Shown piece by piece: positions 11,506 to 60,697 of a stretch of DNA of 64,000 nucleotides. The notes under the pieces are model-generated. The model saw nothing but the letters and a program-made list of their open reading frames with translations, ran no database searches and was not told the origin of the DNA. The position numbers and the translations under genes were made by a program. Origin of the DNA: Paenibacillus sp. FSL H8-0548 (lineage in GTDB: Bacteria; Bacillota; Bacilli; Paenibacillales; Paenibacillaceae); NCBI RefSeq assembly GCF_038630985.1, contig NZ_CP152049.1, positions 3,987,501 to 4,051,500 of the forward strand, read 5' to 3'. How positions within the stretch are numbered: position 1 is the stretch's first letter; each line of letters opens with the position of its first letter.

Positions 11506-11715
11506 ATGTCACTGGGTTTTACTATAAAGAAAATTCGGGAAGAACTTAAAATAAGCCAAGAACAGCTGGCACGAGAATTAAATATAAGTTTCTCAACAAT
11601 TAATCGCTGGGAGAATAATAAGACTAATCCAAGTCGTCTCGCCAAGGATCGACTATGCACTTTCTGCGAAAATAAATTGATTTCCTCAGAAATAATTACA
11701 GAACTTACAAAATAA
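11506..11715 (+). CDS. Small XRE-type helix-turn-helix regulator
   Basis: A 69-residue protein, nearly all of it one HTH_3 domain: IRELLKISQEQLARELN-type helix pair, then FSTINRWENNKTNPS as the recognition helix region. I start it at the ATG at 11506, which follows GGAGGTG at six bases; the frame runs open upstream. It ends 20 bases before the ATPase gene and is the first gene of the HTH-ietA-ietS operon. It probably represses that operon, as small HTH partners of toxin-like modules often do. Known IetAS systems are usually described as two genes, so the regulator is a point of interest. Confidence 0.85.
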   Translation: MSLGFTIKKIREELKISQEQLARELNISFSTINRWENNKTNPSRLAKDRLCTFCENKLISSEIITELTK

Positions 11716-11735
11716 TTTATTGGTAGGTGGAAACA

Positions 11736-12752
11736 TTGGCAAGAGCTGATTTGCTTTTTGAAGTAATAAAACATGGGCTATCAGGAGACGGTCCTCATTT
11801 TAGGCGAGCAGTCGAAGCTATTTGTGCAGAAGAAAGAGCAAAACAACATACTATTGTTGCTAACCGAATAGAAGAATTATTGAAAAACAGCAAACCTGAA
11901 ATGAGAAATCAGCAAAATGGCTTTCCTCTAGTTAGACAAGTTCCAAACGAGCAAAATTTTTATTCTGAGATAGTTCCTAAAAAAAGACTTGAACATTTAA
12001 TACTTCCAGATACGGTTTTGCAGTCATGCAGAGAAGTAATTGAAGAACACAATCGTGCTGACCTGTTACGTTCTTATGGCTTAGAGCCACGAAACAGATT
12101 GCTATTTGTTGGCCCTCCCGGAAATGGAAAGACCTCTTTAGCAGAAGCCATTGCGGAGTCTTTAATGGTCCCTCTTTTAACAGTAAAGTATGAAAGTATA
12201 GTTGGAGCCTACTTGGGTGAGACAGCAATAAAATTGGCAAAATTATTTGATTACGCAAAAACCAGACAATGCGTTTTGTTTTTTGATGAATTTGAGACCT
12301 TAGGCAAAGAACGTGGAGATGTTCATGAAACCGGAGAAATAAAAAGAGTCGTTAGCTCTCTCCTTTTACATATTGACTCGTTACCAAGCTATGTAATAGT
12401 TATTGGAGCTACAAACCATGAAGGTTTATTGGACAAGGCAGCGTGGCGAAGGTTTCAACTACATTTGGAGCTACCATATCCAAGCAGGTCAAACCTTGAA
12501 CTGTGGTTCTCTTATTTTGAAAAACGTACAGGTTTCAAATTTGGTCTTGAGCCGAGCACCTTAGCTAAGAAAACATTAGGTTGTAGTTACGCAGAAGCAG
12601 AAGAATTCGCAACATCTATTTATAGAAAGTACATCCTACAACTTCCTAACCAAGATTCAAAAGGAGTAACATCAAGTACACTCAGATTATGGGATGCACA
12701 GAAGAAAGTAAAACAAGTGTCTAATAACTCAGAGGTGATTGATAATGGCTGA
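11736..12752 (+). CDS. ietA: AAA+ ATPase, IetA-like (anti-phage / plasmid-stability ATPase)
   Basis: About 338 residues with Walker A GPPGNGKT (126-133), Walker B VLFFDEFE (D184/E185 region), sensor-1 GATNHE and an arginine-rich segment near AAWRRFQ. The N-terminus MARADLLFEVIKHG and the AICAEERAKQH stretch resemble IetA ATPases, which pair with a subtilisin-like protease IetS. The pair was first described as a plasmid-stability toxin-antitoxin module and later reported as anti-phage. I chose TTG at 11736, five bases after AGGTGG; a GTG at 11727 lies inside that ribosome site. The stop overlaps the start region of the next gene. Symbol given by resemblance. Confidence 0.8.
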   Translation: MARADLLFEVIKHGLSGDGPHFRRAVEAICAEERAKQHTIVANRIEELLKNSKPEMRNQQNGFPLVRQVPNEQNFYSEIVPKKRLEHLILPDTVLQSCREVIEEHNRADLLRSYGLEPRNRLLFVGPPGNGKTSLAEAIAESLMVPLLTVKYESIVGAYLGETAIKLAKLFDYAKTRQCVLFFDEFETLGKERGDVHETGEIKRVVSSLLLHIDSLPSYVIVIGATNHEGLLDKAAWRRFQLHLELPYPSRSNLELWFSYFEKRTGFKFGLEPSTLAKKTLGCSYAEAEEFATSIYRKYILQLPNQDSKGVTSSTLRLWDAQKKVKQVSNNSEVIDNG

Positions 12753-13683
12753 AAGACCATTAATACTGTTTAAAAAATTTGAAGAAGCCACAAAAGCTAA
12801 AAGAAGTGGACGAGGCTCAAAATTTTCACAACCATCAATAGAAAAACAAATGTCTAAACTTTCTCCAAGATTTAAGCAATTACAAGCTGCGTTGGATAAA
12901 AAGAATATAGCTGTTCAAAACTCCCCTTCAGGTATTAATCCAGACAGTGCTTTAGTTCTTGAAACAGTAGGCACTGTCGATAGTTTTTATAGTGTGATAA
13001 AGAACATTAAAGAATTGGAGTTAGTGTTGGATATCACTATTGATGGTATCCCAATAGATGAAGACTTTTATCTGATTGACGATGACGGGAATTTCAAAGA
13101 AGGAGATCTGTCTGGCAAGTTATACTGTGTGATGACAAATAAAACTGCCTTAAATCAGTTGATCTCCTTATGGAAACAGTACGCTCAGAATCCTAAAATC
13201 AAATTCGATCTCGGTCTCAACGGAGTTAAAGAATTGTTTAATCAACTCAAAGAAATTAGATATTGGAATGCTCAAGATCGTATTGATGAAACAAGAGTTG
13301 TGGACTACTGGAAAGAAAATCTTGAGTTGAATGGAGAAAAGGAAGTTAATTTTGAAATCGAACTTTTCTTTAGAAACACTATTCAACATCGAATTAATTC
13401 TTATTCTATTGTATCTGAGGCAATTAATAATATGGGTGGGCGAGTACTTTCCCAATGTACCATTCCAGAAATTATGTACCATGCTCTCCTTGTTACTCTT
13501 CCTAGAAAACAAATTGAATCGCTAGTTAATAATTATGAACAAGTTGCACTTACGCGGGTAGATGACATTATGTTTTTTAGACCTGTTGGACAAATAGCAT
13601 TTCCTTTCCATCTTCCAGATACTGATCAAGAAACCATACCTATGATCCCTCACAAAACACCCGAAATCACTAGCATTGCATAA
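12745..13683 (+). pseudogene. ietS: IetS-like subtilase, N-terminal half, cut by IS insertion
   Basis: Starts at ATG 12745, seven bases after GAGGTG, overlapping the ietA stop. About 308 native codons run to 13667, then five codons of IS sequence and a TAA. The region has a long N-terminal domain (ILFKKFEEATKAKRSGRG; LPRKQIESLVNNYEQVAL; FFRPVGQIAFPF) of the type that precedes the protease domain in IetS proteins. It contains none of the catalytic residues. Deleting the IS and one target copy continues this frame directly into the protease half at 15275, giving one protein of about 865 residues. The fragment might still be made and bind IetA, but as a protease the gene is broken. Confidence 0.85.
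13659..13667. repeat. Target site duplication, left copy
   Basis: ACCCGAAAT directly abuts the left end of the IS. An identical copy abuts the right end at 15266-15274. Confidence 0.92.
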
Positions 13684-15265
13684 AAATCGTATAGTCTTGT
13701 CAAGCGCTTATCCAGGTTACAGTATTAGTAAAAGAAAGGAGACCTATGGTTAGTGAGAATTTTCAGAATATAAAATCATGACAGTTAGTGCCAAAAAGAC
13801 AAGGGGTGCTGTGATTCAGACAATCCATTATCCACATAATGTTAGATATTTAAATTACCGGATCATATGCCAGTTCGTCCAAGTGATCTTCTTCACCATT
13901 CTCGAATTGCTGTAGCGTCTCCGCAAATATGCGCTCATGATCGTAGGTCCGTCGCCCCTTGGATGTTCGGGTGCGGTCCCCGTACCATTTTCGGATCATC
14001 GCTATCAAGGGCTCGTCCCAGCAACGTTGCATCAGTTTATAGATGATTAATAAGTTACCCTGGAACGCAATCTTTCGCTTAAGAAGCAGAAGCAGACAAT
14101 ACGTGATGAGTGCAATGCGGATTTGCGTATAGACTGCATTGGCGCTGATACCATAGAACCGCTTAATGTGCAGATGCTGCTTGACCCACTTGAAGAACAA
14201 CTCGATGTGCCAGCGGCGACGGTAGAGCTCGCCAATCTCGATTGGCTCCATGGTCCTTTCATTCGTGATGATGGTAATGAGATTGCCCTTGCTATCATGT
14301 GTTTCGATTAACCGCAGCGTATGCTCCATTTGGTTTACACCAGGCTTGCCTAATCGCACGATGGCTTCTCTTAGAATGGGTCCCTCGGCATTCACAACCT
14401 TCTCTTCAAGGACCGTGACGACCGCATTAGCCTTCAAACGAGTGATGAATCGCGTACCATTTTCGCAATACTGGTCGAATAAGTCATAATCGAGATAAGC
14501 GCGGTCAAACAGATTCATCGCATCCGGTTCCTGCACGACAAGCTCGTTCATCTCTGTCTTGTCCGAGGCTTTTGCCGGTTTAAGGACGACTTTATCTGGA
14601 CTTACCATCTGTTCGTGATAGACTACGCGGGTATGCATCTTGATGCCAGCTTTCGTGTTGCGAAATTCTGCCCACCGATGCTTCGTTAGACAGAGAGAGA
14701 TCGTGGAAGAATCAATCAGATTCAACCGTCCAAGTGCTGCCGTTCCTTTCTGAAAGCCGTATTCCCTGTGAATCTGCTGAATGAGATGGCCAAGTGTCGC
14801 ATCGAATAGACCTGGATCCAAGTCTCGCAATTTTCGGGAAAGCTGCGAAGCACTGATCGATTCCAATGCCAGTTCTCGTTGCAGCTCTTCACTCATGCGA
14901 ACGTCCAAACTGATGTCAGCCAAACTCTTGACTTGGCACAACTGTGCAAAGATAAACAACTTACAGAATGTAACGGAATCCAGCTTCTTCGTGTACTTAT
15001 CCAGTCCAAGTTTTGCAATCTGGTTCAATAAAAATTCTCGATCAAGAGGAATAAGGTATTCCTTAAAAGTGGATTTTGTAGTATCCTTGTCCATGCGATC
15101 TCCTTATGAGTAGGGATTTGGACAGGACTGTCTTCTTCCCTAATCATAAGGTTTTTTCTTTGGGTAAAGCCACCTTAATTATTACATATTTAGAACAATT
15201 TTCTCATATAGGCTTTTCGGTGATCGCACTTGACAAATCTGATTTTTGTTTATGCAATGCTAGTG
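13668..15265. mobile_element. IS4-family insertion sequence, complete
   Basis: A 1598-base element bounded by perfect 17-base terminal inverted repeats: CACTAGCATTGCATAAA at the left and its complement at the right end. A 9-base direct duplication, ACCCGAAAT, flanks it. It carries one transposase gene on the minus strand. About 180 bases at the left end and 170 at the right are non-coding. Intact ends, intact transposase and identical target copies argue for a recent insertion into the subtilase gene. Confidence 0.95.
13850..15094 (-). CDS. IS4-family DDE transposase
   Basis: A 414-residue transposase. The DDE triad can be placed: first Asp in LNLIDSSTISL, second in NLFDRAYLDYDLFDQY, and Glu in the IS4 signature YRRRWHIELFFKWVKQHL, where Y-(2)-R-(3)-E-(6)-K is preserved. 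The N-terminal region resembles the DUF4372 domain found in this group. The ATG at 15094 follows AAGGAG. The frame is intact, so the element could be active. It is transcribed against the host gene it interrupts. Confidence 0.95.
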   Translation of the reverse strand: MDKDTTKSTFKEYLIPLDREFLLNQIAKLGLDKYTKKLDSVTFCKLFIFAQLCQVKSLADISLDVRMSEELQRELALESISASQLSRKLRDLDPGLFDATLGHLIQQIHREYGFQKGTAALGRLNLIDSSTISLCLTKHRWAEFRNTKAGIKMHTRVVYHEQMVSPDKVVLKPAKASDKTEMNELVVQEPDAMNLFDRAYLDYDLFDQYCENGTRFITRLKANAVVTVLEEKVVNAEGPILREAIVRLGKPGVNQMEHTLRLIETHDSKGNLITIITNERTMEPIEIGELYRRRWHIELFFKWVKQHLHIKRFYGISANAVYTQIRIALITYCLLLLLKRKIAFQGNLLIIYKLMQRCWDEPLIAMIRKWYGDRTRTSKGRRTYDHERIFAETLQQFENGEEDHLDELAYDPVI

Positions 15266-15274
15266 ACCCGAAAT
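15266..15274. repeat. Target site duplication, right copy
   Basis: ACCCGAAAT, identical to 13659-13667, immediately right of the IS. Confidence 0.92.
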
Positions 15275-16943
15275 ACATAAAATAAGCGAAGCCCCTATTG
15301 TGGCAGTTCTTGATGGTTTCCCTATGCAGAACCATTCTCTTTTATCTGACCGACTGATCATTGATGATCCCGATAATTGGGCAAGTGATTATGTTGTAAG
15401 AGATAGAGTACACGGTACAGCAATGACATCGCTAGTGATTCATGGAGACATAAACAGTAACAATTCTCCTATAAATAGCAAGGTTTATGTTAGACCTATC
15501 TTAAAACCCGTAAGAGATTTCAAAGATAAATTATCAGAATGCGCTCCGGATGATGTCTTACTGATTGATTTGATACATACTGCTGTCAGAAGAATTGTTG
15601 TAGGAGATGAACATAATATAGCCCTTTCATCTGTAAAAATAATAAATTTGTCTTTCGGTGATCCTTCCAGAGTGTTTATCAATATGATAAGCCCTCTCGC
15701 ACGTTTGCTTGATTGGCTAAGCTATACCTATAAGATATTATTTATTATCAGTGCAGGAAACCATAATCAGCACGGCATCGATGTCGGGGTCTCCTTTGAT
15801 GAGTTTAAGAAACTTACTCCCGCTATTAAAGAAGAGTTAGTATTAAAAAGTCTGAATAACAATAGCAGAAATACTAGATTACTATCGCCTGCAGAAAGTA
15901 TAAATAATATCACTGTAGGTGCCTTATTTAATGACTTCTCTAATGTAGTTGAGAACGAAAGATTTATTCTGCCTTACAACCAATCATTACCTAGCCCCGT
16001 TTCAGCTATCGGTCTGGGATATAACAGATCAATTAAGCCAGACATATTTTTTAATGGAGGAAGAAAGTTTATTAGAGAATTAATTGGTTCTACGATAATG
16101 GGTTGGATTCCAGCACCTACGAGACCACCCGGATGCTGCGTAGCTACACCAGGTCAAAATAATGAGATCAATGAAGTAGCATACTCCTTCGGGACAAGCG
16201 ATGCAGCAGCACAGGTTTCTCATAATGGCGTAAAGTGCCACTCAGTTATAGATGAGATTTTCCTTACTCAAACTGGCGAACATGTGCCAGATAAGTACTC
16301 TGCACTATTAATTAAGGCAATGCTTGTTCACGGGGCTTCATGGAGTAATAACAATATTATTGCAAATGCAATGAAGATTCCAGAAAATAGAATATTCAGG
16401 TGGTTGGGAAATGGAATTCCCGATATTGCTCGCGTCATGGAATGCGCCCAGAATAGAATGACTTTAATTGGATATGGAACATTACAGAAAGGAGCTGCGC
16501 ATGTATACGAATTGCCGATTCCATTTAACTTTACTTCAGAGAGGTTTTTTAGAAAACTCACTGTAACACTATCTTACTTTTCACCAGTTATACCTTCGAA
16601 GCAAAAATATCGTTCTGCTCATTTATGGTTCAATATAGAAAATAATAATCTCGTTCCTCAGCGTGTTAACACAGATCACAATGTAGTTCAAAGAGGAACA
16701 ATGCAACATGAGTCATTTTGTGGTGATAAGGCCACCACTTGGAATCCTACTGACTCAATAAAAATAAAAGTTAACTGCCGGGACGATGCCGAAACTAAAA
16801 TACCAGAGATTGAGTATGCCTTATTAGTATCTTTTGAACTAGCCGAAGAAGTATGTGCAAAGCTTGATATAGATGTCTATGAAATCATCTCAACTAAAAT
16901 TCGAGAGCTTGTTCCTATTCAGACTATCAACCCTACTATTTAA
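15275..16943 (+). pseudogene. ietS: IetS-like subtilase, C-terminal protease half, cut off from its start
   Basis: This half holds the S8 peptidase domain. Numbered from the GTG at 15300, the triad reads D5 in AVLDGFPMQNH, H38 in RVHGTAMTSL and S300 in SFGTSDAAAQ. The oxyanion-hole Asn is N154 in SAGNHN. Counting from the rejoined gene, the codons before 15300 read IHKISEAPIV, in frame with the left half. A C-terminal beta-rich domain follows the protease. No good ribosome site precedes the GTG, so expression after insertion is doubtful. The substrate of IetS-type proteases is not something the sequence tells. Confidence 0.88.
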
Positions 16944-16959
16944 TTTAATTTCATTCCTA

Positions 16960-17004
16960 AAAACAGAGGGCTTGGATGTAAAATCCAAGCCCTCTGTTTT
17001 TTTC
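16960..17004 (+). terminator. Strong intrinsic terminator of the ietAS operon
   Basis: AAACAGAGGGCTTGGAT pairs perfectly with ATCCAAGCCCTCTGTTT around a five-base loop, followed by a T run. It lies 17 bases past the subtilase stop. Confidence 0.92.
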
Positions 17005-20247: not shown

Positions 20248-21501
20248 TTAAATAAGATCGGTCAACATAGCTTCCTGTTCCATTTTGACACGATTTTCTA
20301 TCATATGGTCAATGCAGGGTAAACAATCGGCAAGCTCGCTATGCCGCTTCAAGCTACATAGCTTTTCAATATATTGCGGCTGTACTGATGCCGTTAACAA
20401 AGAATATCTTATCAATTCCGATTTATCCATGCGGTATGGAATAACATCGTGCTTAATTTCCCGTCTTAGTCTTGCCAGCATAGAAAATCCACCAAAGTCG
20501 ATATCTCCCCAATGATACCAATGGCTAGTCGTAGGTATGGATGCAGCAACAGCCATTAAAAATTTCCGCTTAGCAGGGCTAAATTGCCCGCCGTGGAACA
20601 CAACTAATTCATGGTCATTTTTTTGCTTATAGATATACTCAATATAATTTGCCCGATTTTCTATTGAAATCACACGTTCTATTGTTGGAGATACTCTTAA
20701 CTGACCTCGTTGGAAATCTTTCGAGTTCACAACGCCCCCAAAAATCAAATGTGAAAAGTCAATGGTTCCGCTATCAAAGAACATGGTTACTTGCCCACAA
20801 AACTCCAATTGTTCGGGATACTTCGTAATACCTACTTGTCTAAGAATTTCCTCATCAGTATTATCATCTTCATAATCTAGATATTTGGACAATATGCCAA
20901 GCAGCCGTGCTCTTATCGCCTTCTCGAATCTCTTTGAATCTCCGAAACATTGAAGCGAAAATACACGCTCAAGCATTTCTAACTCACCCATTTGATCAAT
21001 ACAACATATTGCACGAAGGAGATCACTACGCTCGCTTCTATCTACTGGTAATCTGTTTCCAATAGATCGTTTTCTAGAAATGATGTCATATGCATCGCTC
21101 AGAAACTGTTTTGCCCATCCGCTACGAACTTTATCTATTGAATTCAACAGTTCTAAACAAACCTCATCCACCAAATCGCCTTTTGGTTGCCGCCCAATCA
21201 AGGAGTACGCAGAAGAGATATTCTCAAAATTCAGCCATACCTCTGCTATGATGTGATTTTCTTCACCTTTCATCCACCGATATGATAAGAGCTGCGCCTC
21301 ATACAAGGCCTGTACTGCAAAATTTATCACACTGCGCGTTTCATATTGCTCTATATCATATTGTGGGAACTCTGTTTGCCCTCCATCATATAATTTCAGC
21401 ATAATTCGACGTGTCGGACGTTTTTCCGTGTAAAAAAAACTGCTACGCTCATATTTATCAAGTAAAGCTGAAACTAATTGGCGCTTAAATCCTTCACTCA
21501 T
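20248..21501 (-). CDS. jetD: Wadjet component JetD (TOPRIM nuclease subunit)
   Basis: About 417 residues ending in a TOPRIM-like domain of the DUF2220 type. Candidate catalytic acids are E281 in ISIENRANY and D333/D335 in YHWGDIDFGG. The front part matches the helical arm region of JetD proteins only loosely. JetD is the DNA-cutting subunit that the SMC-like JetABC complex directs at small circular DNA. Start: ATG 21501, after GGAGGAGC; a TTG at 21507 is possible. It overlaps the jetC stop by eight bases. It is the last gene of the operon. Confidence 0.85.
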   Translation of the reverse strand: MSEGFKRQLVSALLDKYERSSFFYTEKRPTRRIMLKLYDGGQTEFPQYDIEQYETRSVINFAVQALYEAQLLSYRWMKGEENHIIAEVWLNFENISSAYSLIGRQPKGDLVDEVCLELLNSIDKVRSGWAKQFLSDAYDIISRKRSIGNRLPVDRSERSDLLRAICCIDQMGELEMLERVFSLQCFGDSKRFEKAIRARLLGILSKYLDYEDDNTDEEILRQVGITKYPEQLEFCGQVTMFFDSGTIDFSHLIFGGVVNSKDFQRGQLRVSPTIERVISIENRANYIEYIYKQKNDHELVVFHGGQFSPAKRKFLMAVAASIPTTSHWYHWGDIDFGGFSMLARLRREIKHDVIPYRMDKSELIRYSLLTASVQPQYIEKLCSLKRHSELADCLPCIDHMIENRVKMEQEAMLTDLI

Positions 21502-24500
21502 AGTCAAGCTCCTCCAACTTCCTAGGGTCGAAACTACGCACGCATGCCTGCTTTCCTACACGTAACACGCATAAATTCCTATCTACAAGAGTGGCAATAT
21601 CCCCAATTTTATCGGGTGGTGCTGAAAGTACCACTTGAAAGTTAAACTCACGTAACAGTTCAACACTACGCACAATTCGCTCGCCATCCATCTTGGAAAA
21701 TGCTTCATCAAACAGGATGATACGAGATGTATTAGCTGTCTTGTCCCGGCCAATGCGATACAATTGTGCAAATGATGCTAATACTGCAATATAAAATGGC
21801 GTCTGGGTTTCGCCACCAGATTTTTTTCCAAGTGTTTTAGAGAGTCTTTGTGATTCTCCCTCGCGGTTAATGACCTCTAAATCGAAGGAAAGATAAGTCC
21901 GATAATCCGTAAAAGCTTGTACTCGCTTTTCATAATCATCGCGTTCCTGTGCTTTCGATCCGGTTCCTTCATTCGTGATAATTGCAAACAGTTCTGCAAT
22001 CTCATCCTTGTATTTTGCATTAAACTGATCAGACAAAAGATTATACCCGCCTTCCAGCAGCATTGGATCTACGATCATATCATAATATCGTTTATATTCC
22101 TGTTTTGGAATAATCAGAAAACGATATGTATCCTCGCCAAAGGAACTTCCGCTTAATGCACTGTTTAGTCCATCAATCTGCCGTCTTGCATCCTTTATGT
22201 TATATTGTAGACGGCTTAAAAAATCCTCCTGAAACTGCTCAAAAGCTTTACTTCGGGCATCGGCGATACGAGTCAAATATTCCGGAAGTTTAATATCGCT
22301 AAGCTCAATCCACGCATTATCGTAAGCGTCATTACTCACGGCGTCAATATCATACCCCATGATATACTTATCATTATATTGGCGGCGCAAAGTTCTCAAC
22401 TCGTCCCACAAAGCGTTTTTAGCGTTTACGGAGCGGCTAAGTTCTCTCGGAAATGCCCGTTCAATATCAACTGCATTACCTCTACTTAAGAGCTCACGTT
22501 GATATCTTGTATTTCCTGTGCTCTGGAGCCATTCAGCTTCGTATTTTCTAGAAAGTTCTAATTCCATCGTTTCCAATTCTTTAGAAAGTCTTGGAATTGT
22601 TTCCTCTATGCATACACGCAAGCGTTCTTTGATGGTGCTAAATTCGTGCTTATATACGTCAATCTGTTTATAAAGAGCCCCCAGTTGTTGATCTAATGAC
22701 TCGATGCGTTCCTGTATTGCTTCAACAGTACTTTTATCAATAGACTCCATACTTTTATTCAGCAAAATGACTTCTTGTTCTATCGCTGGAATCTGTCCAA
22801 CGTTTACCGCTGCCGTAACAGTCTGCTTAGCGTCCGATTCACTTAGTATCATTAGAGCATTTCCCGATTGAAAGGCAATCTTTACCGATGCACAAACAGC
22901 TATTTTATCAGTTAACTCTTTAATCTCTCTTTTTACATCTTCCAAGCGTTGCTGAATTGCACCTTGGCCAATAGCAGGCTTAGCCCATCTATCTGGATTC
23001 ATCGCTCTTACAACAAAATTCTGATATAACATTCCATCGTCTGTAATCGCTGTTCGATGCCGGCGTAAATCACTGACGCGGTCACATTTCTTCACACGAC
23101 CAAGTGTAAAATCTAAAAATAGGCGCACATTGGGATCATCTGTTTCAAGTTCTTCAGCAAGGCTTCCAGGTTCTGCAATGGGATTTATTCTTTGAAGCTT
23201 TTCAATATCCACAATACCAGTGTTATAGATGTTTCGTTGTCTTTTAATATCATCATAAACACGAAGTGCAGTGTCAAAGTGCTCCGGTGGGACAATCAGA
23301 TAGAATTTTTGTGTATTAAGATATCCTTCAATAACATTACGCCAGCGTTTGTTCCTAAGTTCAGCTGCTTCCGACACTACTACTACCTTAACTGATGAAC
23401 CAGTTTGCGTATGCAAACGCCCTATAACAGCTTCCTTGAGATCAAGTACATCCTGTGGAAAGCGGTAGACACCACTTTCAAGGGACTGCTGCTCCGTCAG
23501 TAATCCTTTACGATTATCGGCAACCTTCTGTTGTTCTTCAGAGAATCGTGAAACGAGGCCGTTGCACTGCATTCGTATAACATCCGCTCTGGCTGAATAG
23601 TGAATGAGCCCTTTCTCCCCAACTGTTAAAATGGATGCTGCATCACTATTTCCGAGTGTTTCAAGCTTGGTATAAAACTGTTGTCCTTCATCAACCAAGT
23701 CATGAACACGAGTCGTCAATATCGGATCGAGAGAGCTAGTATCTGTCCCTTGAATTTTCTGAATGAACCCATTAATGTTCATCCTCCATGAAGCAATGCT
23801 TCTTGAAAGTAATGCAGAAGTCCTACCGAAATCCCCATGAAGCGTAGATATTAGTTGCTCTTTCTCTGAGATTTGAGACTGGAGATGTTCTAAAATTTGC
23901 GCTTCCTTGTTACTGAGCAGGTTGGCTTGCATGATATTACGTTCACCCTGCAGTTTGCTCTGCCGCTCAGTTTCCTTTGCTAAGGTATCGTTCAATACAG
24001 TTAGCTGGGCGGAATAAGCGGTTACTTTTTCTTTCTCACCTGCACTAGTAGTCAATTTGATATCTACTTGCGCGCGGTCAATCAGATAGGAATATAGAAT
24101 TTCATTTTGTCTGTGGCTTTCAAAGGTTTGATGATCCGTAACAATGTGTTCAAGCAACGTGATTCGATCCTTAAGCACATCAGCCTCTTGCTCCAGGCTT
24201 TTATAGCTTCTAATATTTTCCTGCATTCGGCTGACATCAACTGTTTGTTGCGTATCACAGACGAATTCCGAGATGAATTTTTGTATGTCAACATCGGGAT
24301 TAAACGAAACAGCTTTCCTCAATAACTGACCGAAGCGATCACGCAAGCCTCCAAGTTTCCCATATAAATCCTGCCTAAAATCTCGATTTACATCGGTAGT
24401 ATAACTACGTCCTATGGAATAGTGTTCCTTGATATATGCCCTCAAAGTTGTAATATCCATCGGCTTCCTATTAATAACGAACTCATTTGACGGCATGGCT

Positions 24501-24895
24501 CCGTCAAATCGAAAAAATAATTTTTGCATATCGTTTTCCGAATAAGTATCAAAGCAACACCCTGAGGTAAAATATTTTTTCTTCTCCTCATCAAAGAACT
24601 CTAAGGCGATATAGCTTGTAAAACGTCCATTACGTAGATATTTAAAACCTGAATCCTCATTGTCGCCTAATTCACCGCGTAAATATCCACTTAAGGTTCG
24701 ATTACCGCGTCCACTGGCAGCCTTGTTGAAGAAGCTACCACTAGTATCGGCAAGCAGTAACAACTGCAGAGCATCCATAACCGTTGACTTCCCTGAGGCA
24801 TTTTTTCCGGTCAGAAAATTCACTTTATCTAACTCAATAACTTCATGGACAAAGTAGTGCCAATGAATCAGCAAGAGTTTTGTCATCCGTTTCAT
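21494..24895 (-). CDS. jetC: Wadjet component JetC (SMC/MukB-like ATPase)
   Basis: The 1133-residue protein has Walker A TGKNASGKST (30-38), two long coiled coils with a hinge-like middle (about 470-700), signature SGGETQTPFY (from 1026) and Walker B RIILFDEAFS (D1063/E1064). That is a full SMC-type ATPase. JetC is the loop-extruding motor of Wadjet, which limits plasmid uptake. The ATG follows GGAGG at seven bases. It starts two bases after the jetB stop and overlaps jetD. Confidence 0.95.
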   Translation of the reverse strand: MKRMTKLLLIHWHYFVHEVIELDKVNFLTGKNASGKSTVMDALQLLLLADTSGSFFNKAASGRGNRTLSGYLRGELGDNEDSGFKYLRNGRFTSYIALEFFDEEKKKYFTSGCCFDTYSENDMQKLFFRFDGAMPSNEFVINRKPMDITTLRAYIKEHYSIGRSYTTDVNRDFRQDLYGKLGGLRDRFGQLLRKAVSFNPDVDIQKFISEFVCDTQQTVDVSRMQENIRSYKSLEQEADVLKDRITLLEHIVTDHQTFESHRQNEILYSYLIDRAQVDIKLTTSAGEKEKVTAYSAQLTVLNDTLAKETERQSKLQGERNIMQANLLSNKEAQILEHLQSQISEKEQLISTLHGDFGRTSALLSRSIASWRMNINGFIQKIQGTDTSSLDPILTTRVHDLVDEGQQFYTKLETLGNSDAASILTVGEKGLIHYSARADVIRMQCNGLVSRFSEEQQKVADNRKGLLTEQQSLESGVYRFPQDVLDLKEAVIGRLHTQTGSSVKVVVVSEAAELRNKRWRNVIEGYLNTQKFYLIVPPEHFDTALRVYDDIKRQRNIYNTGIVDIEKLQRINPIAEPGSLAEELETDDPNVRLFLDFTLGRVKKCDRVSDLRRHRTAITDDGMLYQNFVVRAMNPDRWAKPAIGQGAIQQRLEDVKREIKELTDKIAVCASVKIAFQSGNALMILSESDAKQTVTAAVNVGQIPAIEQEVILLNKSMESIDKSTVEAIQERIESLDQQLGALYKQIDVYKHEFSTIKERLRVCIEETIPRLSKELETMELELSRKYEAEWLQSTGNTRYQRELLSRGNAVDIERAFPRELSRSVNAKNALWDELRTLRRQYNDKYIMGYDIDAVSNDAYDNAWIELSDIKLPEYLTRIADARSKAFEQFQEDFLSRLQYNIKDARRQIDGLNSALSGSSFGEDTYRFLIIPKQEYKRYYDMIVDPMLLEGGYNLLSDQFNAKYKDEIAELFAIITNEGTGSKAQERDDYEKRVQAFTDYRTYLSFDLEVINREGESQRLSKTLGKKSGGETQTPFYIAVLASFAQLYRIGRDKTANTSRIILFDEAFSKMDGERIVRSVELLREFNFQVVLSAPPDKIGDIATLVDRNLCVLRVGKQACVRSFDPRKLEELDYE

Positions 24896-24897
24896 TT

Positions 24898-25539
24898 CTA
24901 ATCCTCCTGTTCTCCAGTTGTGCTAGTGTCGTCATCTACTCGAAGCTCATCTAATTCTGTTATCATATCGTTGATCCCTTGATTGGAAATAATAGATAAG
25001 ATGGATGGGAGAATGAGAATTTGATTACCTTCATTGTTCCATGCAGAAGATTCCATTTTTTGAATAATATTATGATGCGCAAGCGTTCTTTGGGCCTCAA
25101 TACGTTCTTTTTGTGTTGTTTTCCCCTTATCAAGAAGTCCAAGCATTCGCATTTTTTCAACAACTGCTTGAGTATCTGTTTTAACCGTATGGAAGCTATT
25201 TACTTGTTCTCTCTCTTCTTCGTATATGAGACGGCATGTATATAAAAATAATGTAGTGAATCGATCAATTCTCAAGCGATTATGGTCAAATATATTTATT
25301 AAGGACATGATTCCATAATTATCATCTTTTTCAAGCCGCCAGCCAGTGATCGCAAAATAATCATGTAAAATTCCAAATAGACGTGAAGCTATCTGATAGT
25401 CGTAGTTTGGCAAGGTCATTTGCTGTGAAGACTGATACTCATATCGCACCATATATGTATGAGATAACAGGTAATTCGCCAAACGTTTGAACTCGCCTTT
25501 CTCATAAGTAGTTAGTCCTATGTACTTCTCATTCCACAT
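24898..25539 (-). CDS. jetB: Wadjet component JetB (DUF4194, MukE-like)
   Basis: A 213-residue protein with winged-helix character, matching DUF4194: YLLSHTYMVRYEY, SRLFGILHDYFAITGWRLEKD and FTTLFLYTCRLIYEEER. JetB is the KITE-type bridge between the JetA kleisin and the JetC heads. The ATG follows AGAGGTGGGG. The frame overlaps the end of jetA by 11 bases and is followed by jetC after two bases. Confidence 0.92.
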   Translation of the reverse strand: MWNEKYIGLTTYEKGEFKRLANYLLSHTYMVRYEYQSSQQMTLPNYDYQIASRLFGILHDYFAITGWRLEKDDNYGIMSLINIFDHNRLRIDRFTTLFLYTCRLIYEEEREQVNSFHTVKTDTQAVVEKMRMLGLLDKGKTTQKERIEAQRTLAHHNIIQKMESSAWNNEGNQILILPSILSIISNQGINDMITELDELRVDDDTSTTGEQED

Positions 25540-26935
25540 GGTGCCCCACCTCTCTTTTGCTGAACGTCATATTAGGAATTATGTAACCATTTCTATCAAG
25601 TCGACCATTGTTCATTTGCACCTTGTAATTCATGCCTCGTTCATTAGCGCGAACCATAGCCAGTATCAGAAGTATAAAGTCCTCATCGTTATTAATCGCT
25701 ATTGTTTCACTATTAATAGAAGATGCATTTTCTTTAAAAAGACTGTTTACATATGTTCGAATTCTTGCCACGGGGTATCCATTTTTAATTTGTTGCAACA
25801 TATCGGTCATAGCCGCATTAGAAAACGTATTATCATCTTTGATTTCCAGCGGTTCAGAATTGACACGCTTACTACGTACATTTTTGTGATAGAGAGATTT
25901 CCCATCAATAAATTCTTGTCGATTGACTCGAATATTCTGTTCAAGCATCTCAACGATTACAGTGCGCTTGGTATCTGAAGATTTTGAGTATTCTTTCAAC
26001 AGCTCAACCAGTTTCCCCTTGATACTTTGGTCTGCAGTCATCAGGTATTGGATTTTTTCAATAGAGTTTTTTGTGTATGCGCTGTGCTTTCTATCAATTT
26101 CATTCACAATTCCTCCAATTGACTGATATACATCCAAAACATAATCAATTGAAGATATGATCTCCTGCCCCGCCTCATCGTCATTCTCATATTTTCGGAT
26201 CGTCATGGCTCTTGATCGCATCTCATCCATGAGTTCTTCATCCGCAAGAATATCTGACAGTATCTCCTGAATTGGTGCCATATAGCGATGAATAGAATCC
26301 ATTGTTTTGATCGGATGATAAATACTGTCGGACATCCTTTTGTATTCTTCAAAATGATTTTTCAGCAGCACATTCACTTCACTCTGCTCCTGTATTCGCC
26401 GCAAATAACTGCGAATTCCATGATAAAGCCTTTTTAGCTCGTAAGTAAGTTGCTCCGTGTTTGTCTTTGCGGACAAGACTGCCTCATACATTTGCCCTTG
26501 ATGTTCATTTTTGGCTTGCTTGAGACCAGAATAAGTCGCGAATACGAGGGAGTTATACTCGTGCAGGGTCTGATCACTTAGTTCACTCAAGAGCTTCATT
26601 ACTTTAATGGCATAATCACGTGGAGTAATAATTTCAATAAATGAACCATCCAGAAACTCCTTATCTACCCATCCCGTTTTAACCAGGCGGTTCAATATCA
26701 AACGCGCTTTAACATTAGATGTCAAGCTGACTTCGGTTACTTCGTCATCTTCTTCGAGCATAAAGGATTTATCCTCAATTTGGGCTATCAAAGACGAGAT
26801 ATAATCGTCTACCCGTATATTAAGTTCATACTTGAACATCTGATGTATCAGCATGAGCGCATCAACATATATTTCTTTGTTCCCCGATGCCAGCACAGAG
26901 AAAAATTTTTCAGGAACTGTGTCAAAAATGTTCAC
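25529..26935 (-). CDS. jetA: Wadjet component JetA (kleisin-like subunit, DUF5716-type)
   Basis: About 468 residues, mostly helical. The start MNIFDTVPEKFFSVLASGNKEIY looks like the JetA family whose Pfam entry was DUF5716. I use GTG at 26935, preceded by AGGTGG; the frame is open to a GTG at 26950. JetA is the kleisin that closes the JetC ring. The sequence is not of the DUF3375 kind found in the first-described type I systems, so a different Wadjet subtype is likely; I cannot fix which from sequence alone. First gene of the jetABCD operon. Confidence 0.88.
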   Translation of the reverse strand: MNIFDTVPEKFFSVLASGNKEIYVDALMLIHQMFKYELNIRVDDYISSLIAQIEDKSFMLEEDDEVTEVSLTSNVKARLILNRLVKTGWVDKEFLDGSFIEIITPRDYAIKVMKLLSELSDQTLHEYNSLVFATYSGLKQAKNEHQGQMYEAVLSAKTNTEQLTYELKRLYHGIRSYLRRIQEQSEVNVLLKNHFEEYKRMSDSIYHPIKTMDSIHRYMAPIQEILSDILADEELMDEMRSRAMTIRKYENDDEAGQEIISSIDYVLDVYQSIGGIVNEIDRKHSAYTKNSIEKIQYLMTADQSIKGKLVELLKEYSKSSDTKRTVIVEMLEQNIRVNRQEFIDGKSLYHKNVRSKRVNSEPLEIKDDNTFSNAAMTDMLQQIKNGYPVARIRTYVNSLFKENASSINSETIAINNDEDFILLILAMVRANERGMNYKVQMNNGRLDRNGYIIPNMTFSKREVGHHVE

Positions 26936-27003
26936 GTATCCACCTGCCAATCCATTTGGTATTATAATTCATTTGGTTACAATAGGTCTTTTAAAATAGT
27001 CTT

Positions 27004-27047: not shown

Positions 27048-28965
27048 AGAGTAAAGGGCTGAACTTTTCAGCCCCTCCTCATCAAACCGTACGTGAGGTT
27101 TTCCCTCATACGGCTTTCCGATGTTCGTCATTCATCGGCATGCAGATTACAAGAGCGTCTTTAATCCGTGAAGCTTGATCAGGTGTTTTACTTCTTGAAA
27201 GGAACTCTTCCATCTCGCTCGCTGACGTTTCTTCGCATACCATCTCATGAACCGTTGCATAATATACCAATCCAATTTCGCCAATTTCTGCTGGCTATAG
27301 GCGGTATAGTAATAGTTCCGCCACCCTTGGATTTTCGGGTTTAACCATGCCACATGTTCTTCGACTGATTTTTGTCGCATCCCTGGCGGGGCAAGTCGTT
27401 CTTTGACCACTTCCCGTATACGTTCCTCCGCCTTCCGGGTTAGCCACTGCTGGGTCGTGTAGTAAACGCGTCCTTGCGACGTTTCCGCTTTCGTCTTCCT
27501 GTGATGCATGCCTAGAAAGTCGAAACCCTCCTCACCTGTCCACAATCCTACGATTCGCGTTTTCTCAGGATGCAAGGTGAGCTCAAGCCGTTCCATGATC
27601 GCTTGGATCAGCGCATAGGCTCGGTCTGCCTCTTTCTTCGTCTTGCAAACGACCACCAGATCGTCTGCATAGCGCGTCAATTCTCCCAAACTCTTACCGT
27701 GGCGTTCCCACAACAGATCGAAGTAGTTCAGATAAATATTCGCGAGCAGCGGCGAAATGACTCCGCCCTGCGGCGTGCCTAAATCTGAGCGCCGTACTTG
27801 ACCTTCTTCCATAACCCCCGCACCTAGCCACTTTCGCACTAGCTTCAATATCCGCCGATCACTGATTCGCATCGCCACCAGTTTCATCAGCTTCTCTTGA
27901 TTAATGGCATCAAAGTAGCCTTGGATGTCGACGTCGATCACCCAATTCCCTTTGCGGTTGCAGGCTTTCCGAATGCGTTCTAGCGCTTGTTTGGCACTGC
28001 GTTTTGGCCGAAAGCCGAACGAGACTTCCTGAAAATCCATTTCAAAGATGGGTTCCATGATCATTTTCGTTGCCATTTGGATGACGCGGTCACGTACCGT
28101 TGGGATACCTAATGGTCTTTGCTTGCCATCTTTCTTCGGAATGTATTGTCTTCTGACCGGCGCTGGATGATACGTGCCTTCTTTCAGTAAGCGATGACAC
28201 TCTTCGATGAAGTTGAAATCTCCTTGCTTTTCAATTTCTGCAAGGGTTTGGCCATCAACGCCTGCTGCGCCTTTATTGGCACGTACTCGGCGCCATGCTT
28301 CCCAGAGCATATCTCTTCGGTACACCTTGTCATACAAGGCATGGAATCTGCGCTTCTTGTTTTCCTTGACCGCTTGACCTAGTTTCTCTTGGAGTTGTTG
28401 AACGTTTTCCTTTGGTGTTGTTAGCCTCTCGGCATTCACTGACTCGTACCTCCTTATGAAACATGAACAAAGCAGGGCTCCTTCCCTCCCGCAGGTTGTG
28501 TTGTCCTGCGTTCTTCGGTACTATGAGCCCCTCGGACTCCCTTCCTGCAGGCTACTCATTTCACCCCATGGCTTATAGAGCGTCTCTTTACGGGCTTCAA
28601 AAAAAAATTTCCGTGCAGGGGAGGGTCTCCCCAGTTCACTGCATCCTCTTTCCTACCATGCCGCTCCCTTTACGCCGGAGGATTCTTCGCTATTGTTCCA
28701 AGTTCTCCATAGCTTCCTTGGCCTTCGTCTAATTGCACAAGACTCGGCTTCCTCTTTTCCCTCTTGCGAGGCCTTTTTGACGACGCGGCAAGATTCACTT
28801 CATGTTACGGCCTGGTAGGTTGCTTGCCCTGTCTCTGACAGGTACTTTTGTCGATACGCTTCTACGCACAGATTTCGCCATACGTAGGTATCCTAGCTAC
28901 GAAGGTGGCTTGGCCCCTCCTTCGGTTGGACTTTCACCAACTAGACGATACGCGCCTCTGGGCAC
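27048..28965 (-). mobile_element. Group II intron (IIC-like), copy 1
   Basis: On the minus strand the 5' end reads GTGCCCAGAGGCG at 28965, eight or so bases past the T run of a terminator. The 3' part after the maturase gene holds a domain V-like hairpin (AAGCCGTATGAGGG...CCTCACGTACGGTT) and a domain VI-like hairpin (GGGCTG...CAGCCC), ending near TTTACTCTA. Size about 1.92 kb. The 3' boundary may be off by a few bases because both copies share the next bases. Insertion after a hairpin and T run is the habit of class C introns. Confidence 0.85.
27147..28439 (-). CDS. ltrA: Group II intron reverse transcriptase/maturase, copy 1
   Basis: 430 residues: reverse transcriptase domain with YADD at 257-260 in LTRYADDLVVV, RT motifs RPLGIPTVRDRVIQ and GTPQGGVISPLLANIYLNYF. 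A maturase (X) domain follows, ending in IQGWRNYY and a basic tail. There is no HNH endonuclease, as usual for class IIC. Starts at GTG after AAGGAGG. The frame is complete. It shares the same layout and length with the copy at 58885 but differs at many residues, so the two introns came separately or are old. Confidence 0.95.
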   Translation of the reverse strand: MNAERLTTPKENVQQLQEKLGQAVKENKKRRFHALYDKVYRRDMLWEAWRRVRANKGAAGVDGQTLAEIEKQGDFNFIEECHRLLKEGTYHPAPVRRQYIPKKDGKQRPLGIPTVRDRVIQMATKMIMEPIFEMDFQEVSFGFRPKRSAKQALERIRKACNRKGNWVIDVDIQGYFDAINQEKLMKLVAMRISDRRILKLVRKWLGAGVMEEGQVRRSDLGTPQGGVISPLLANIYLNYFDLLWERHGKSLGELTRYADDLVVVCKTKKEADRAYALIQAIMERLELTLHPEKTRIVGLWTGEEGFDFLGMHHRKTKAETSQGRVYYTTQQWLTRKAEERIREVVKERLAPPGMRQKSVEEHVAWLNPKIQGWRNYYYTAYSQQKLAKLDWYIMQRFMRWYAKKRQRARWKSSFQEVKHLIKLHGLKTLL

Positions 28966-53135: not shown

Positions 53136-53303
53136 GTGGAAGAACGGAAAGCTGTCATTATACAGAAAATAAAAAAATATGGCATCATAAAAGACCCACA
53201 ATGGCTAGACCGCCCGGATGAGCTGGTACCATTGTGGGTCATGCTTGAAGCAATATTAGAAGTCATTGAACGGTTTGATCCGCCTAATCGTCCTTATGAT
53301 TAG
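53136..53303 (+). CDS. Small hypothetical protein overlapping the parC 3' end
   Basis: 55 residues from GTG 53136 (GGAG 11 bases upstream): [20 protein letters not shown], then [20 protein letters not shown] and [15 protein letters not shown]. It looks like a real, helical small protein. It ends inside the last 20 bases of parC on the other strand. No family is recognised. Confidence 0.5.
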
Positions 53304-55746
53304 CTTCCAATATGGAGCGTGCGAGCGTATACGATATAACATCATTTTTCTCTAGCGGGAATAGAAGCTTGCCAATCGCTTTACGCTCTTCAATTGGTGC
53401 TTTCTCTGAGATGGCACTCAGCTTCGCTCCAGATGATGTAATTGCGACGATATTCATCGCTTCCTTGCAATAATAGGCTGTGACCAATGCCGCGCCGTTT
53501 GGACGCACCCGCTTGCCTTCTTTAAACTCAAACGTTTGGACGCCCTTGCCGCCTCTTCCTTGAATTGGATAGTCGAGCAGCAGCGTACGCTTGGCAAAAC
53601 CGATATCAGTGATGACGAGTACTTCGCCCTCATCCTCAGCAACCCATTCTGCCGCGATAAGCTCGTCTCCATCCTTTAGCTGGATGCCCCGAACACCTGA
53701 AGCTACTCTGCCCATCGAATTCACTTCAGTTTCAGCGAATCGAATACTCATACCGAGCTTAGTGATGAGCATAATTTGCTTCGAGCTGTCACTCAGTACA
53801 ACCCGAATAATTTCATCGCCGTCTGATACTTTGCAGGCCGCTACAGCCGTTGATCGCGTTGTCGCATATTCCTTAAGCTCTGTTCGTTTCACCTGGCCGC
53901 GCTTCGTCACAAAGACTAGAGAGGCGGTAGAAGCTAAAATATCTTTAATTGGAATGACACTTACAATCGCATCATCCTTCGGTATAGCTACTACGTTTAC
54001 GATAGCGGTTCCGGTATCCTTCCACTTAAATTCTGGAATTTGATGGACAGGCAATAAATAATATTGACCTTTGCGCGTAAACAAAAGCAAGTTATCTATC
54101 GTATTTACAGACAGAAGATCCGTTACAAAATCGCCGTCCTTCACACCTGCATTTTGAAGCTCTCCACCAGATCTTGTGAACGACAGCATGCTTGTACGCT
54201 TCACGTACCCATCTCTACTCAGGGTAACGAGAACATCCTCAGGCGTAACAAGCACCTCAAGATTGACTTTCAGCTCCTCAACCTCACCGCGAAGATCAGA
54301 ACGGCGATCTATGCCATATTTCGTCTGAATCTCAAGCAGTTCGTCCTTTATGACACCTAATAGTTTTTTTTCACTTGCTAAAATCGATTTGAAGTAAGCG
54401 ATTTTCTTCATCGCTTCCTTAAGCTCTTTCTCAAGCGTATTAATTTCTAGATTCGTTAAGCGATAAAGCTGTAACGTAAGTATCGCGTCGGCCTGGCGCG
54501 CAGTAAAGCCAAATTTGGCTACCAAATTGTCTTGTGCGTCCGCACGATTTTTGGACGCTTTAATCGCTGCAATTACTTCATCGAGTATATTAAGCGCCTT
54601 TACGAGCCCTTCTACAACATGAGCACGGTCCTCAGCCTTTTCCAAATCATATTTGGTACGGAAGGTTACAACTTCCTTCTGATGCTCAATATAAGCCGAT
54701 AGAATTTGCTTCAATCCAAGCTGCATAGGCGTTTTGTTTACAATCGCGACCATATTAAAGCTGTAAGCGACCTGTAAATCCGTTTTCTTGAATAAATAAG
54801 CTAATATGCCTTGCGCATCAGCATCCTTCTTAAATTCAACAACGATACGCAAACCATTGCGTCCGCTTTCGTCGCGAACTTCAGCGATACCCTCAACCTT
54901 TTTCTCAAGACGGATATTTTCCATTGCTGTAACGAGCCTGGATTTCACAACCTGATAAGGAATTTCCGTAATAACAAGCTGCGTCTTGCCTCCGCGCATA
55001 TCCTCAATTGCCGTTTTAGCACGTATATAAATACGTCCCTTACCTGTTGCGTAAGCATCTTTTATGCCTTCTTCGCCCATAATAATGCCGCCTGTTGGAA
55101 AATCCGGTCCTTTGACATACGTCATAAGCTCTTCGAGCGTGAGGTCTGGGCTTCCCATAAGGGCGATACAAGCGTTGATGACCTCGCGCAGATTATGGGG
55201 CGGTATTTCCGTGGCAAAGCCGGCAGAGATGCCGCTGGTCCCGTTTACGAGCAGATTAGGGTACCGCGACGGCAGCACAACCGGCTCCTTCGTCGTATTG
55301 TCGAAATTATCCTTGAACTGCACCGTTCTTTTTTCTATATCACGAAGCAGCTCCATCGCGATAGGCGACAAGCGTGCTTCTGTATATCGCATAGCTGCTG
55401 CAGGGTCATCATCCTGAGAGCCCCAATTGCCATGACCGTCAACGAGCGGATGCCCCATCTTCCAAGGCTGCGCCATACGAACCATACCCTCATAAATTGA
55501 CGAATCTCCATGCGGGTGATAGTTACCCATGACGTCACCGACGGTTTTCGCCGATTTCCGATACTGCTTGTCCGGCGTATTGCCTGAATCGTACATCGCA
55601 TATAGAATACGACGCTGCACCGGCTTCAAACCATCGCGAACGTCAGGAATAGCTCGGTCCTGAATTATATACTTTGAATAGCGTCCGAAGCGGTCTCCCA
55701 CTATCTCTTCCAAAAACGCCGGTAAAAACTGTTCCAGCATACTCAT
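53284..55746 (-). CDS. parC: DNA topoisomerase IV subunit A
   Basis: 820 residues. The catalytic Tyr is Y121 in [10 protein letters not shown]. The quinolone region [12 protein letters not shown] has the sensitive Ser/Glu pattern. A C-terminal beta-pinwheel follows with repeats such as [14 protein letters not shown] and [16 protein letters not shown] GyrA-box-like QGRGGKG is present late, but pairing with parE and the short C-terminus favour ParC over GyrA. It cuts and rejoins DNA to separate daughter chromosomes. It lies 12 bases after parE. Confidence 0.93.
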
Positions 55747-58777: not shown

Positions 58778-60697
58778 GAGTAAAAGGCTGAAAGATTTTT
58801 TTTCTTCAGCCTCTCCTCATCAAACCGTACGTGAGGTTTTCCCTCATACGGCTTTCCGATGTTCGTCTTTCATACGCATGCGGATTACAGTAACGTTTTA
58901 AGTCCACATTGCTTTGCCATGTGTTTTACCTCTTGCATGGAGCTCATCCATCTTCTACGTTGTCTTTTCTTGGCATACCATCGAGTCAAGCGTTGCACAA
59001 TGTACCAGTCTAACTTCGCTAACTTCAATTGGCTGTAGTTAGTAGCATAGTAGTTTCTCCATCCTTGGATCTTTGGATTGAGCCACTTCACATGTTCCTC
59101 AATAGAGCTTGAACGCATGCTTGGCGGTGCTAATCGTTCTTTCACCACTTCTCGTATACGTTCTTCCGCTTTCTTCGTTAGCCATTGTTGCGTCGTATAG
59201 TACACTTTTCCATGCGACGTTTCCGCTTTCGTCTTTCGGTGATGCATACCTAGAAAGTCGAATCCTTCTTCCCCCGTCCATAATCCTACAATTCGAGTTT
59301 TCGTCGGATGTAGGGTCAGTTCAAGGCGTTCCATTATGGCCGTTATGAGTTTGTAGGCGTGATCTGCGTCTTTCTTCGTTTTACATACCACAACAAAGTC
59401 ATCTGCGTACCTCGTTAACTCGCCTACTGTTTCTCCATGTTTCTCCCACATCTGGTCGAAGTAATTCAGATAGATGTTAGCAAGTAGAGGGGAAATAACA
59501 CCGCCTTGCGGTGTACCTAGATCGGAGCGTCTTACCTTTCCATCTTCCATGACTCCCGCCTGTAACCACTTCCTGATTAACTTGAGAACTCGTCTGTCGT
59601 TGATGCGCATGAGCACTAATTTCATCAGCTTCTCTTGATTAATGTTATCGAAGTAGCCTTGGATATCGACGTCGACTATCCAATTCCCTTTACGGTTGCA
59701 GGCTTTACGGATTCGCTCTAACGCTCCCTTGGCTCCCCTTTTCGGACGAAATCCAAAAGATACTTCCTTGAAATCCGCTTCAAATACAGGCTCAATGACT
59801 AGTTTTGTCGCCATTTGGATGACTCGGTCGCGAACCGCAGGAATACCAAGCGGTCTTAGCTTACCGTCTTTCTTTGGGATATAGTGTCTGCGAACAGGCT
59901 GTGGTTGGTAGTTTCCGTCTTTCAGCAGTTGCTGACACTCTTTAAGAAACGAGATGACTCCCTCTTTCTCGATGTCTGCAATCGTTAAGGCATCTACTCC
60001 CGCCGAGCCTTTATTGGCACGTACACGATTCCATGCTTCGCACAGGATGTCCCACCGATAGACCTTGTCATATAAGGCGTGGAATTTGCGTTTCTTGTTT
60101 TCCTTGGCAGCATGACCTAGCTTTTCTTGGAGTTGTTGAACTTTTTCCTTTGGTGTCGTTAGCCGTATGGCATTCACTCACTCGTACCTCCTCCAAAAGC
60201 TTGAACAAAGCAGGGCTCCTTCCCTCCCGCAGGTTATGTTGTCCTACGGTTCTTCGGTACTATGAGCCCCTCGGACTCCCTTCCTGCAGATGTCTCACTT
60301 CACCTTTCGGGCTTATAGAGCATCTCGCTACGAAAAAAAAAATCGTGCAGGGGAGGGTCTCCCCAGTTCACTGCATTATCTTTCAATCCATGTCGCTCCC
60401 TTTACACCGGAGGATTCTTCACTGTTGCTCCAAGTTCTTCACAGTTTCCATGGCCTTCGTCCATATACACGAGACTCGGCTTCCTCTTACCCCTCTTGCG
60501 AGGCCTTTTTGACGATGCGGCAGGATTCACTTCATGTTACAACCTGGATTGTTGCTCGCCCTGTCTCAGACAGGTACTTTCGTCGATGCGCTTTTACGCA
60601 CAGATTTCGCCATACGCAAGCATCCTAGCTACAAGAGTGGCTTGGTCCCTCTCTTGGTTGGACTTTCACCAACTAGATAATGCGTGCCTCTGGGCAC
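58778..60697 (-). mobile_element. Group II intron (IIC-like), copy 2
   Basis: Same structure as copy 1: 5' end GTGCCCAGAGGC at 60697, eight bases after a terminator T run. The maturase gene follows, then domain V-like AAGCCGTATGAGGG...CCTCACGTACGGTT and a domain VI-like hairpin with GAGGCTGAAG...CTTTCAGCC. The 3' end is near 58778. About 1.92 kb. Inserted just past the terminator of the sugar ABC operon, in the same direction. Confidence 0.87.
58885..60177 (-). CDS. ltrA: Group II intron reverse transcriptase/maturase, copy 2
   Basis: 430 residues. YADD at 257-260 in LTRYADDFVVVC, GTPQGGVISPLLANIYLNYF and the maturase text IQGWRNYYATNYSQLKLAKLDWYI. No endonuclease domain. Starts at GTG after GGAGGAGG. 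Differs from the copy at 27147 in many positions (for example EKEGVISFLKEC against EKQGDFNFIEEC), so neither is a fresh duplicate of the other. Complete frame. Confidence 0.95.
   Translation of the reverse strand: MNAIRLTTPKEKVQQLQEKLGHAAKENKKRKFHALYDKVYRWDILCEAWNRVRANKGSAGVDALTIADIEKEGVISFLKECQQLLKDGNYQPQPVRRHYIPKKDGKLRPLGIPAVRDRVIQMATKLVIEPVFEADFKEVSFGFRPKRGAKGALERIRKACNRKGNWIVDVDIQGYFDNINQEKLMKLVLMRINDRRVLKLIRKWLQAGVMEDGKVRRSDLGTPQGGVISPLLANIYLNYFDQMWEKHGETVGELTRYADDFVVVCKTKKDADHAYKLITAIMERLELTLHPTKTRIVGLWTGEEGFDFLGMHHRKTKAETSHGKVYYTTQQWLTKKAEERIREVVKERLAPPSMRSSSIEEHVKWLNPKIQGWRNYYATNYSQLKLAKLDWYIVQRLTRWYAKKRQRRRWMSSMQEVKHMAKQCGLKTLL

Follow-up and report, generated by a model that had tools for sequence, protein, structure and literature searches.

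The closest described systems couple an AAA-ATPase antitoxin to a subtilisin-like toxin within a single operon: SgiAT of Salmonella genomic island 1 and IetAS of pTiC58 (PMC5006074). The toxicity of SgiT alone shows in less than 30 min and is neutralised by SgiA (PMC5006074). TA132/3 of Mycoplasma mycoides, with a toxin of 757 residues, is the same type of pair in another bacterium. Cells of this mycoplasma stay viable when they lose the toxin or both genes, while loss of the antitoxin alone is lethal (PMC8562856, citing earlier work). ietAS is also counted among the defence systems (PMC11811056, PMC10286901). We describe here a broken relative of these pairs, located in a window of 64,000 nucleotides (the whole stretch of DNA that was analysed, positions 3,987,501 to 4,051,500 of contig NZ_CP152049.1) of Paenibacillus sp. 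FSL H8-0548, the genome of which makes a single contig of 7.35 Mb. The locus is very probably a defence or toxin-antitoxin operon comprising a helix-turn-helix (HTH) gene, ietA and ietS, where the effector gene, ietS, was knocked out by the recent transposition of an insertion sequence (IS) of the IS4 family.

As in SgiAT and in IetAS of pTiC58, the two proteins belong to one operon. Those pairs are intact and sit on mobile elements, and the part of their description consulted makes no mention of an HTH gene. The gene order, the AAA+ partner and the association of an N-terminal domain with an S8 protease are common to our locus and to IetAS as defined by PADLOC (PDLC04232, PDLC04233/04234) and NCBIfam (IteA/IteS). 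The IetAS profile is nearly fully covered once both halves of IetS are counted; what differs is that IetS is split by the IS and that an HTH gene precedes ietA. IetS is therefore not one continuous protein: both parts are present, divided by the IS, and the locus is a disrupted member of the IetAS family. Its scores fall below the NCBIfam cut-offs (218 for a cut-off of 510 with IteA; 80 for a cut-off of 900 with IteS, scored on the right half only), so that, judging from sequence, the locus probably belongs to a subfamily apart from those behind the NCBIfam models.

The ends of the inserted element are identical over exactly 17 bases, with a mismatch at base 18, and a perfect duplication of 9 bp flanks it (Table 1). 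The transposase scores 230.5 bits (E 2.7e-68) against the NCBIfam IS4_1 model NF033592, which has a cut-off of 115. A hallmark of the IS4 family is the YREK motif, Y-x2-R-x3-E-x6-K, and it is present in the translated transposase as YRRRWHIELFFKWVK. The DDE transposase, the inverted ends and the short duplication are all shared with IS4-family elements; the assignment was made by the family model, and no named element was matched in a comparison that lay outside ISfinder. The host genome holds six copies of the element, identical over 1598/1598 bases, and each of the six has its own distinct perfect duplication of 9 bp, which is far beyond chance. A full-length copy was found in none of the 50 other genomes of the genus that were searched; a match of some sort at E 0.001 was seen in 9/51 genomes, the host included, the best one outside it reaching 81% over 400 bases. 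The identity of the six copies, their perfect duplications and the lack of a full-length copy in the other 50 genomes fit a recent arrival of the IS followed by a burst in this genome. The first-pass annotation had described an IetAS-type operon interrupted by a recent IS4-family insertion with perfect ends, and the profile matches, a base-level check and this distribution of copies bear it out.

The two halves of ietS cover consecutive parts of PDLC04233 (855 positions), 1-291 on the left and 306-851 on the right, the whole protease being contained in the right half. The final five of the 312 codons of the left fragment already lie in the IS; a stop follows, and the frame is shifted. With ATG 12745 as the most likely start, removal of the IS and of one duplication copy gives a protein of 863 residues (16943-12745+1-1607 = 2592 = 3 x 864 codons with the stop). 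The halves were predicted to rejoin in the same frame over about 865 codons: the frame is indeed restored, and it is the length that had to be corrected. Also as predicted, the cut falls just before the catalytic Asp, the codon of which (15312-15314) lies 38 bases past the second duplication copy. His (15411), Asn (15759) and Ser (16197) follow in the same half, and the four residues are invariant in 48/48 homologues.

Uninterrupted relatives, called for by the same annotation, are plentiful. Among 8000 candidates scored with the right half, 3437 proteins matched at E <=1e-10. We examined the best 120 of these 3437: 112 are single proteins, 842-871 residues long, and the eight shorter ones are the present locus and seven proteins (599-724 residues) that begin upstream of the break. 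The closest intact relative among these 120 (P0002, 864 residues) has an identity of 83% with the left half (260/312) and of 85% with the right half (464/547), another intact one (862 residues) reaches 78%, and the intact relatives align straight over the junction. None of the best 120 of 3437 is a naturally separate protease starting at VAVLDG, an arrangement that had been put forward as a possible refutation, and the left half does resemble the N-terminus of IetS, the second point raised in that sense. A search with the left half, limited to candidates of 0.55 to 1.75 times the query length, retrieved 33 proteins with an identity of at most 49%; N-terminal pieces thus occur elsewhere, and may be broken genes or contig ends. 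Solved structures gave no match by sequence to the right half at E 0.001, and 12 matches to the left half, the best at E 0.11 only. A search for IetS on phages gave no match at E 1e-5.

The insertion point corresponds to residues 307-308 of P0002, and residues 304-308 have a predicted local distance difference test (pLDDT) score below 50. Conservation around the break (0.29 over residues 281-300, 0.37 over 301-320) is the lowest of the protein except at its C-terminal tip. In the structural model the break falls in a flexible linker between the N-terminal domain and the complete protease. The left half, with a mean pLDDT of about 90 over residues 31-280, is predicted to fold alone.

By analogy with its homologues, IetS of the intact system would be a subtilisin-like protease, toxic alone and restrained by IetA, an AAA+ protein. 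Its release on phage infection would halt or kill the cell before the phage could spread. The insertion in the linker shifts the frame and brings in a stop after five codons of IS sequence, so that this copy cannot yield a full IetS; production of the protease fragment would be low or absent. What probably remains is IetA with a folded N-terminal domain and little or no protease: a harmless IetA would stay in the cell, the N-terminal domain would be free, and the defence given by the module would be lost. No other IetS that could compensate was found in the host genome. In homologues the toxic partner is IetS and its antitoxin is IetA, so that IetS would be the side whose loss is tolerated. 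The module is of a known type and was inactivated in a known way; taken alone, the knock-out amounts to ordinary genome decay. As a case it is clean at the level of single bases, the defence module being switched off in its toxin, with the antitoxin kept, in the direction predicted by toxin-antitoxin logic. What is new here is a break in a flexible linker, upstream of which lies a half that is predicted to fold alone and that ends in some 85 residues resembling a subtilisin prodomain, though no better than generic ferredoxin-like folds. In the literature searched for ietAS, IetA/IetS, SgiA/SgiT and Gao_ietAS, the text consulted contains neither an IS-split IetS nor a statement about a prodomain, and that on ietAS in Paenibacillus nothing relevant.

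Several observations weigh against a silenced toxin. The right fragment retains the catalytic residues and is open over 547 codons, from GTG 15300, without a visible ribosome site. At the right end of the IS (15230-15258) a perfect TTGACA is followed, 17 bases on, by a partial and weak -10 (TGCAAT); a scan did not report an outward promoter there. Because the right half is open, its catalytic residues are kept and TTGACA stands at the IS end, some protease fragment could be made. The toxin and antitoxin roles themselves come from distant homologues, the best plasmid relative among the matches listed being 36.2% identical over the protease. Finally, SgiAT under its own promoter did not kill plasmid-free cells (PMC5006074).

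Table 1. Features of the broken ietAS locus and of the neighbouring Wadjet operon (positions in the window)
Feature	Position	Strand	Support or remark
HTH gene, Cro/CI-type, 69 residues	11506-11715	+	Pfam HTH_3, E 1.9e-14
ietA, AAA+ ATPase, intact	11736-12752	+	PADLOC PDLC04232, E 2.3e-141
ietS left fragment of 312 codons, with the N-terminal domain	12745-13683	+	PDLC04233 positions 1-291
Target duplication ACCCGAAAT, left copy, 9 bp	13659-13667		
IS4-family insertion sequence	13668-15265		1598 bp; inside ietS
Left inverted repeat, 17 bp	13668-13684	+	
IS4-family DDE transposase, 414 residues	13850-15094	-	Antisense to ietS; NF033592, DDE_Tnp_1
Right inverted repeat, 17 bp	15249-15265	-	
Target duplication ACCCGAAAT, right copy, 9 bp	15266-15274		
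ietS right fragment, S8 protease and C-terminal domain	15300-16943	+	PDLC04233 positions 306-851; Peptidase_S8, E 7.6e-16
Hairpin, perfect 17 bp, 5-base loop, T run	16961-17003	+	Just 3' of ietS; not listed by the scan
JetD	20248-21507	-	Wadjet type I
JetC	21494-24895	-	Wadjet type I
JetB	24898-25539	-	Wadjet type I
JetA	25529-26950	-	Wadjet type I

Was the loss of IetS selected? The first-pass annotation had suggested that the insertion was retained because an active effector is costly, knock-out of the toxin gene by the IS being favoured. Tolerance of toxin loss and lethality of antitoxin loss in a homologue (PMC8562856) speak in this sense, as does the state of other loci. Using PDLC04233 we found IetS in 16/392 genomes of the order (E 1e-30), and in 12/398 of the class and 10/398 of the phylum (E 1e-20); these draws overlap and each includes the host, the total being 36 genomes with 38 loci, all found through IetS. 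At 32 of the 38 loci the IetS frame is open (779-896 residues); an open IetA lies no farther than about 1.4 kb from the match at every one of them, and a broken IetA at none. IetS is damaged at the remaining six, four of which have an intact IetA alongside. Besides the present locus, split by the IS, the damaged forms are in two frames (G130 and G1020), shortened to 539 residues (G825), or of 680 residues with a stop (G1043:C6), with no IetA found on the contig in this last case. The sixth (G274, another genome of the order; L096 5315-5692), again with no IetA found on its contig, is a C-terminal relic of about 125-130 residues, 74% identical to P0002, which places it by sequence in the same IetS subfamily; by eye, it lies beside a nrdR-like gene. 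A count of four broken IetS against no broken IetA, among loci found through IetS, does not reach significance (p 0.125 in a sign test; gene length alone would give 0.72^4 = 0.27), and asymmetric decay, with the toxin broken more than the antitoxin, stays suggestive. Moreover, four of the five other IS copies (L002, L003, L005 and L006) interrupt open frames that resume in the same phase beyond the IS, L004 showing no split frame by this test, so that the IS hits genes at large. The split genes comprise one with a 185-residue part matching Cytochrom_C_asm (L002, which we read as hemX-like from its position among haem genes), one of no recognised kind (L003), an N-acetyltransferase (L005, Acetyltransf_2) and a histidine kinase (L006, HAMP and His_kinase); no recognisable defence gene is among the four. 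The Wadjet system 3.3 kb away is still open. A selected loss is therefore unlikely, and the earlier suggestion, although it agrees with toxin-antitoxin logic (PMC5006074, PMC8562856), is not supported.

In a separate search, a Klebsiella plasmid pair used as query gave no match in E. coli genomes. On a plasmid of Klebsiella michiganensis (L071 2234-5661), an IetS-like protease of 511 codons comes after a hypothetical protein of 151 codons and a short ATP-binding protein, and this may be another damaged pair.

A further question is what the free N-terminal part might do. Its last 85 residues or so resemble a subtilisin prodomain, but generic ferredoxin-like folds match equally well, and the 280-residue N-terminal part of IetS has no sequence match to Inhibitor_I9, a difference from the KP-43/SubHal subtilases. 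In mesophilic prosubtilases the propeptide is both chaperone and inhibitor (PMC10580911). We tentatively consider, giving it less than even weight, that IetS is a pro-protease, with an N-terminal part built as a double ferredoxin-like unit. The second copy would act as prodomain, and the Cdc48-like IetA, for which the best solved structures matched by sequence are Cdc48/VCP, would act on the unit to control the toxin. The interest of such a prodomain-like unit is that it offers an idea of how IetS stays quiet. If this were true, the IS would have cut at the natural boundary between prodomain and protease, leaving a free, possibly inhibitory prodomain.

Free subtilisin propeptides can chaperone in trans. 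One could thus imagine a split system that still works, the left product assisting or inhibiting in trans a separately translated protease domain. A free subtilisin propeptide is known as an inhibitor (PMC10580911), but we deem such a working split most improbable. Just below it in likelihood comes a reversible switch, where the IS, excised precisely from between its 9-bp repeats, would leave a restored ietS in some cells and make defence phase-variable. In its favour are the perfect duplication and IS ends and the open frames of both halves, but such features are common to any recent insertion, and precise excision of elements of this type is rare. A natural two-gene arrangement, for which we found no support, was rejected, since 112 of the best 120 of 3437 relatives are single proteins and the target duplication marks an insertion.

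Returning to the knocked-out operon, ietA has no internal stops and lies directly upstream of ietS, with an overlap of 8 bp. Its open frame reaches back to GTG 11727; TTG 11736 is the most likely start, judging from the presence of MARADLLF there in relatives and from the GGTAGGTGG site that precedes it. The HTH gene, with a GGAGGTGA site ahead of ATG 11506, is the probable regulator of the operon. A homologue stands directly upstream of ietA in two of the six relatives inspected, L008 (55%) and L069 (60%), which are those with the closest IetA (72-73% identity); beside ietA in the remaining four, more distant loci, no homologue was found. HTH-ietA-ietS would thus be a variant of the IetAS operon that carries a regulator of its own. 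The hairpin downstream of ietS is the probable terminator of the operon.

The broken IetAS and the Wadjet type I system (20248-26950, minus strand), complete with all frames open, make a small defence island; comparison of flanking genes across 16 genomes was uninformative on its boundaries. Two similar reverse transcriptases of 430 residues (27147-28439, adjoining the Wadjet operon, and 58885-60177, both on the minus strand) probably come from group II introns. Elsewhere in the window, a topoisomerase subunit (53287-55746) is 93% identical to its counterparts in Paenibacillus endophyticus and P. sinopodophylli, which places the host in their group of the genus. Between 17602 and 19035 (minus strand), short pieces in differing frames resemble, by eye, a secreted protein whose N-terminal repeats are of the copper amine oxidase type, and are probably what is left of a decayed gene.
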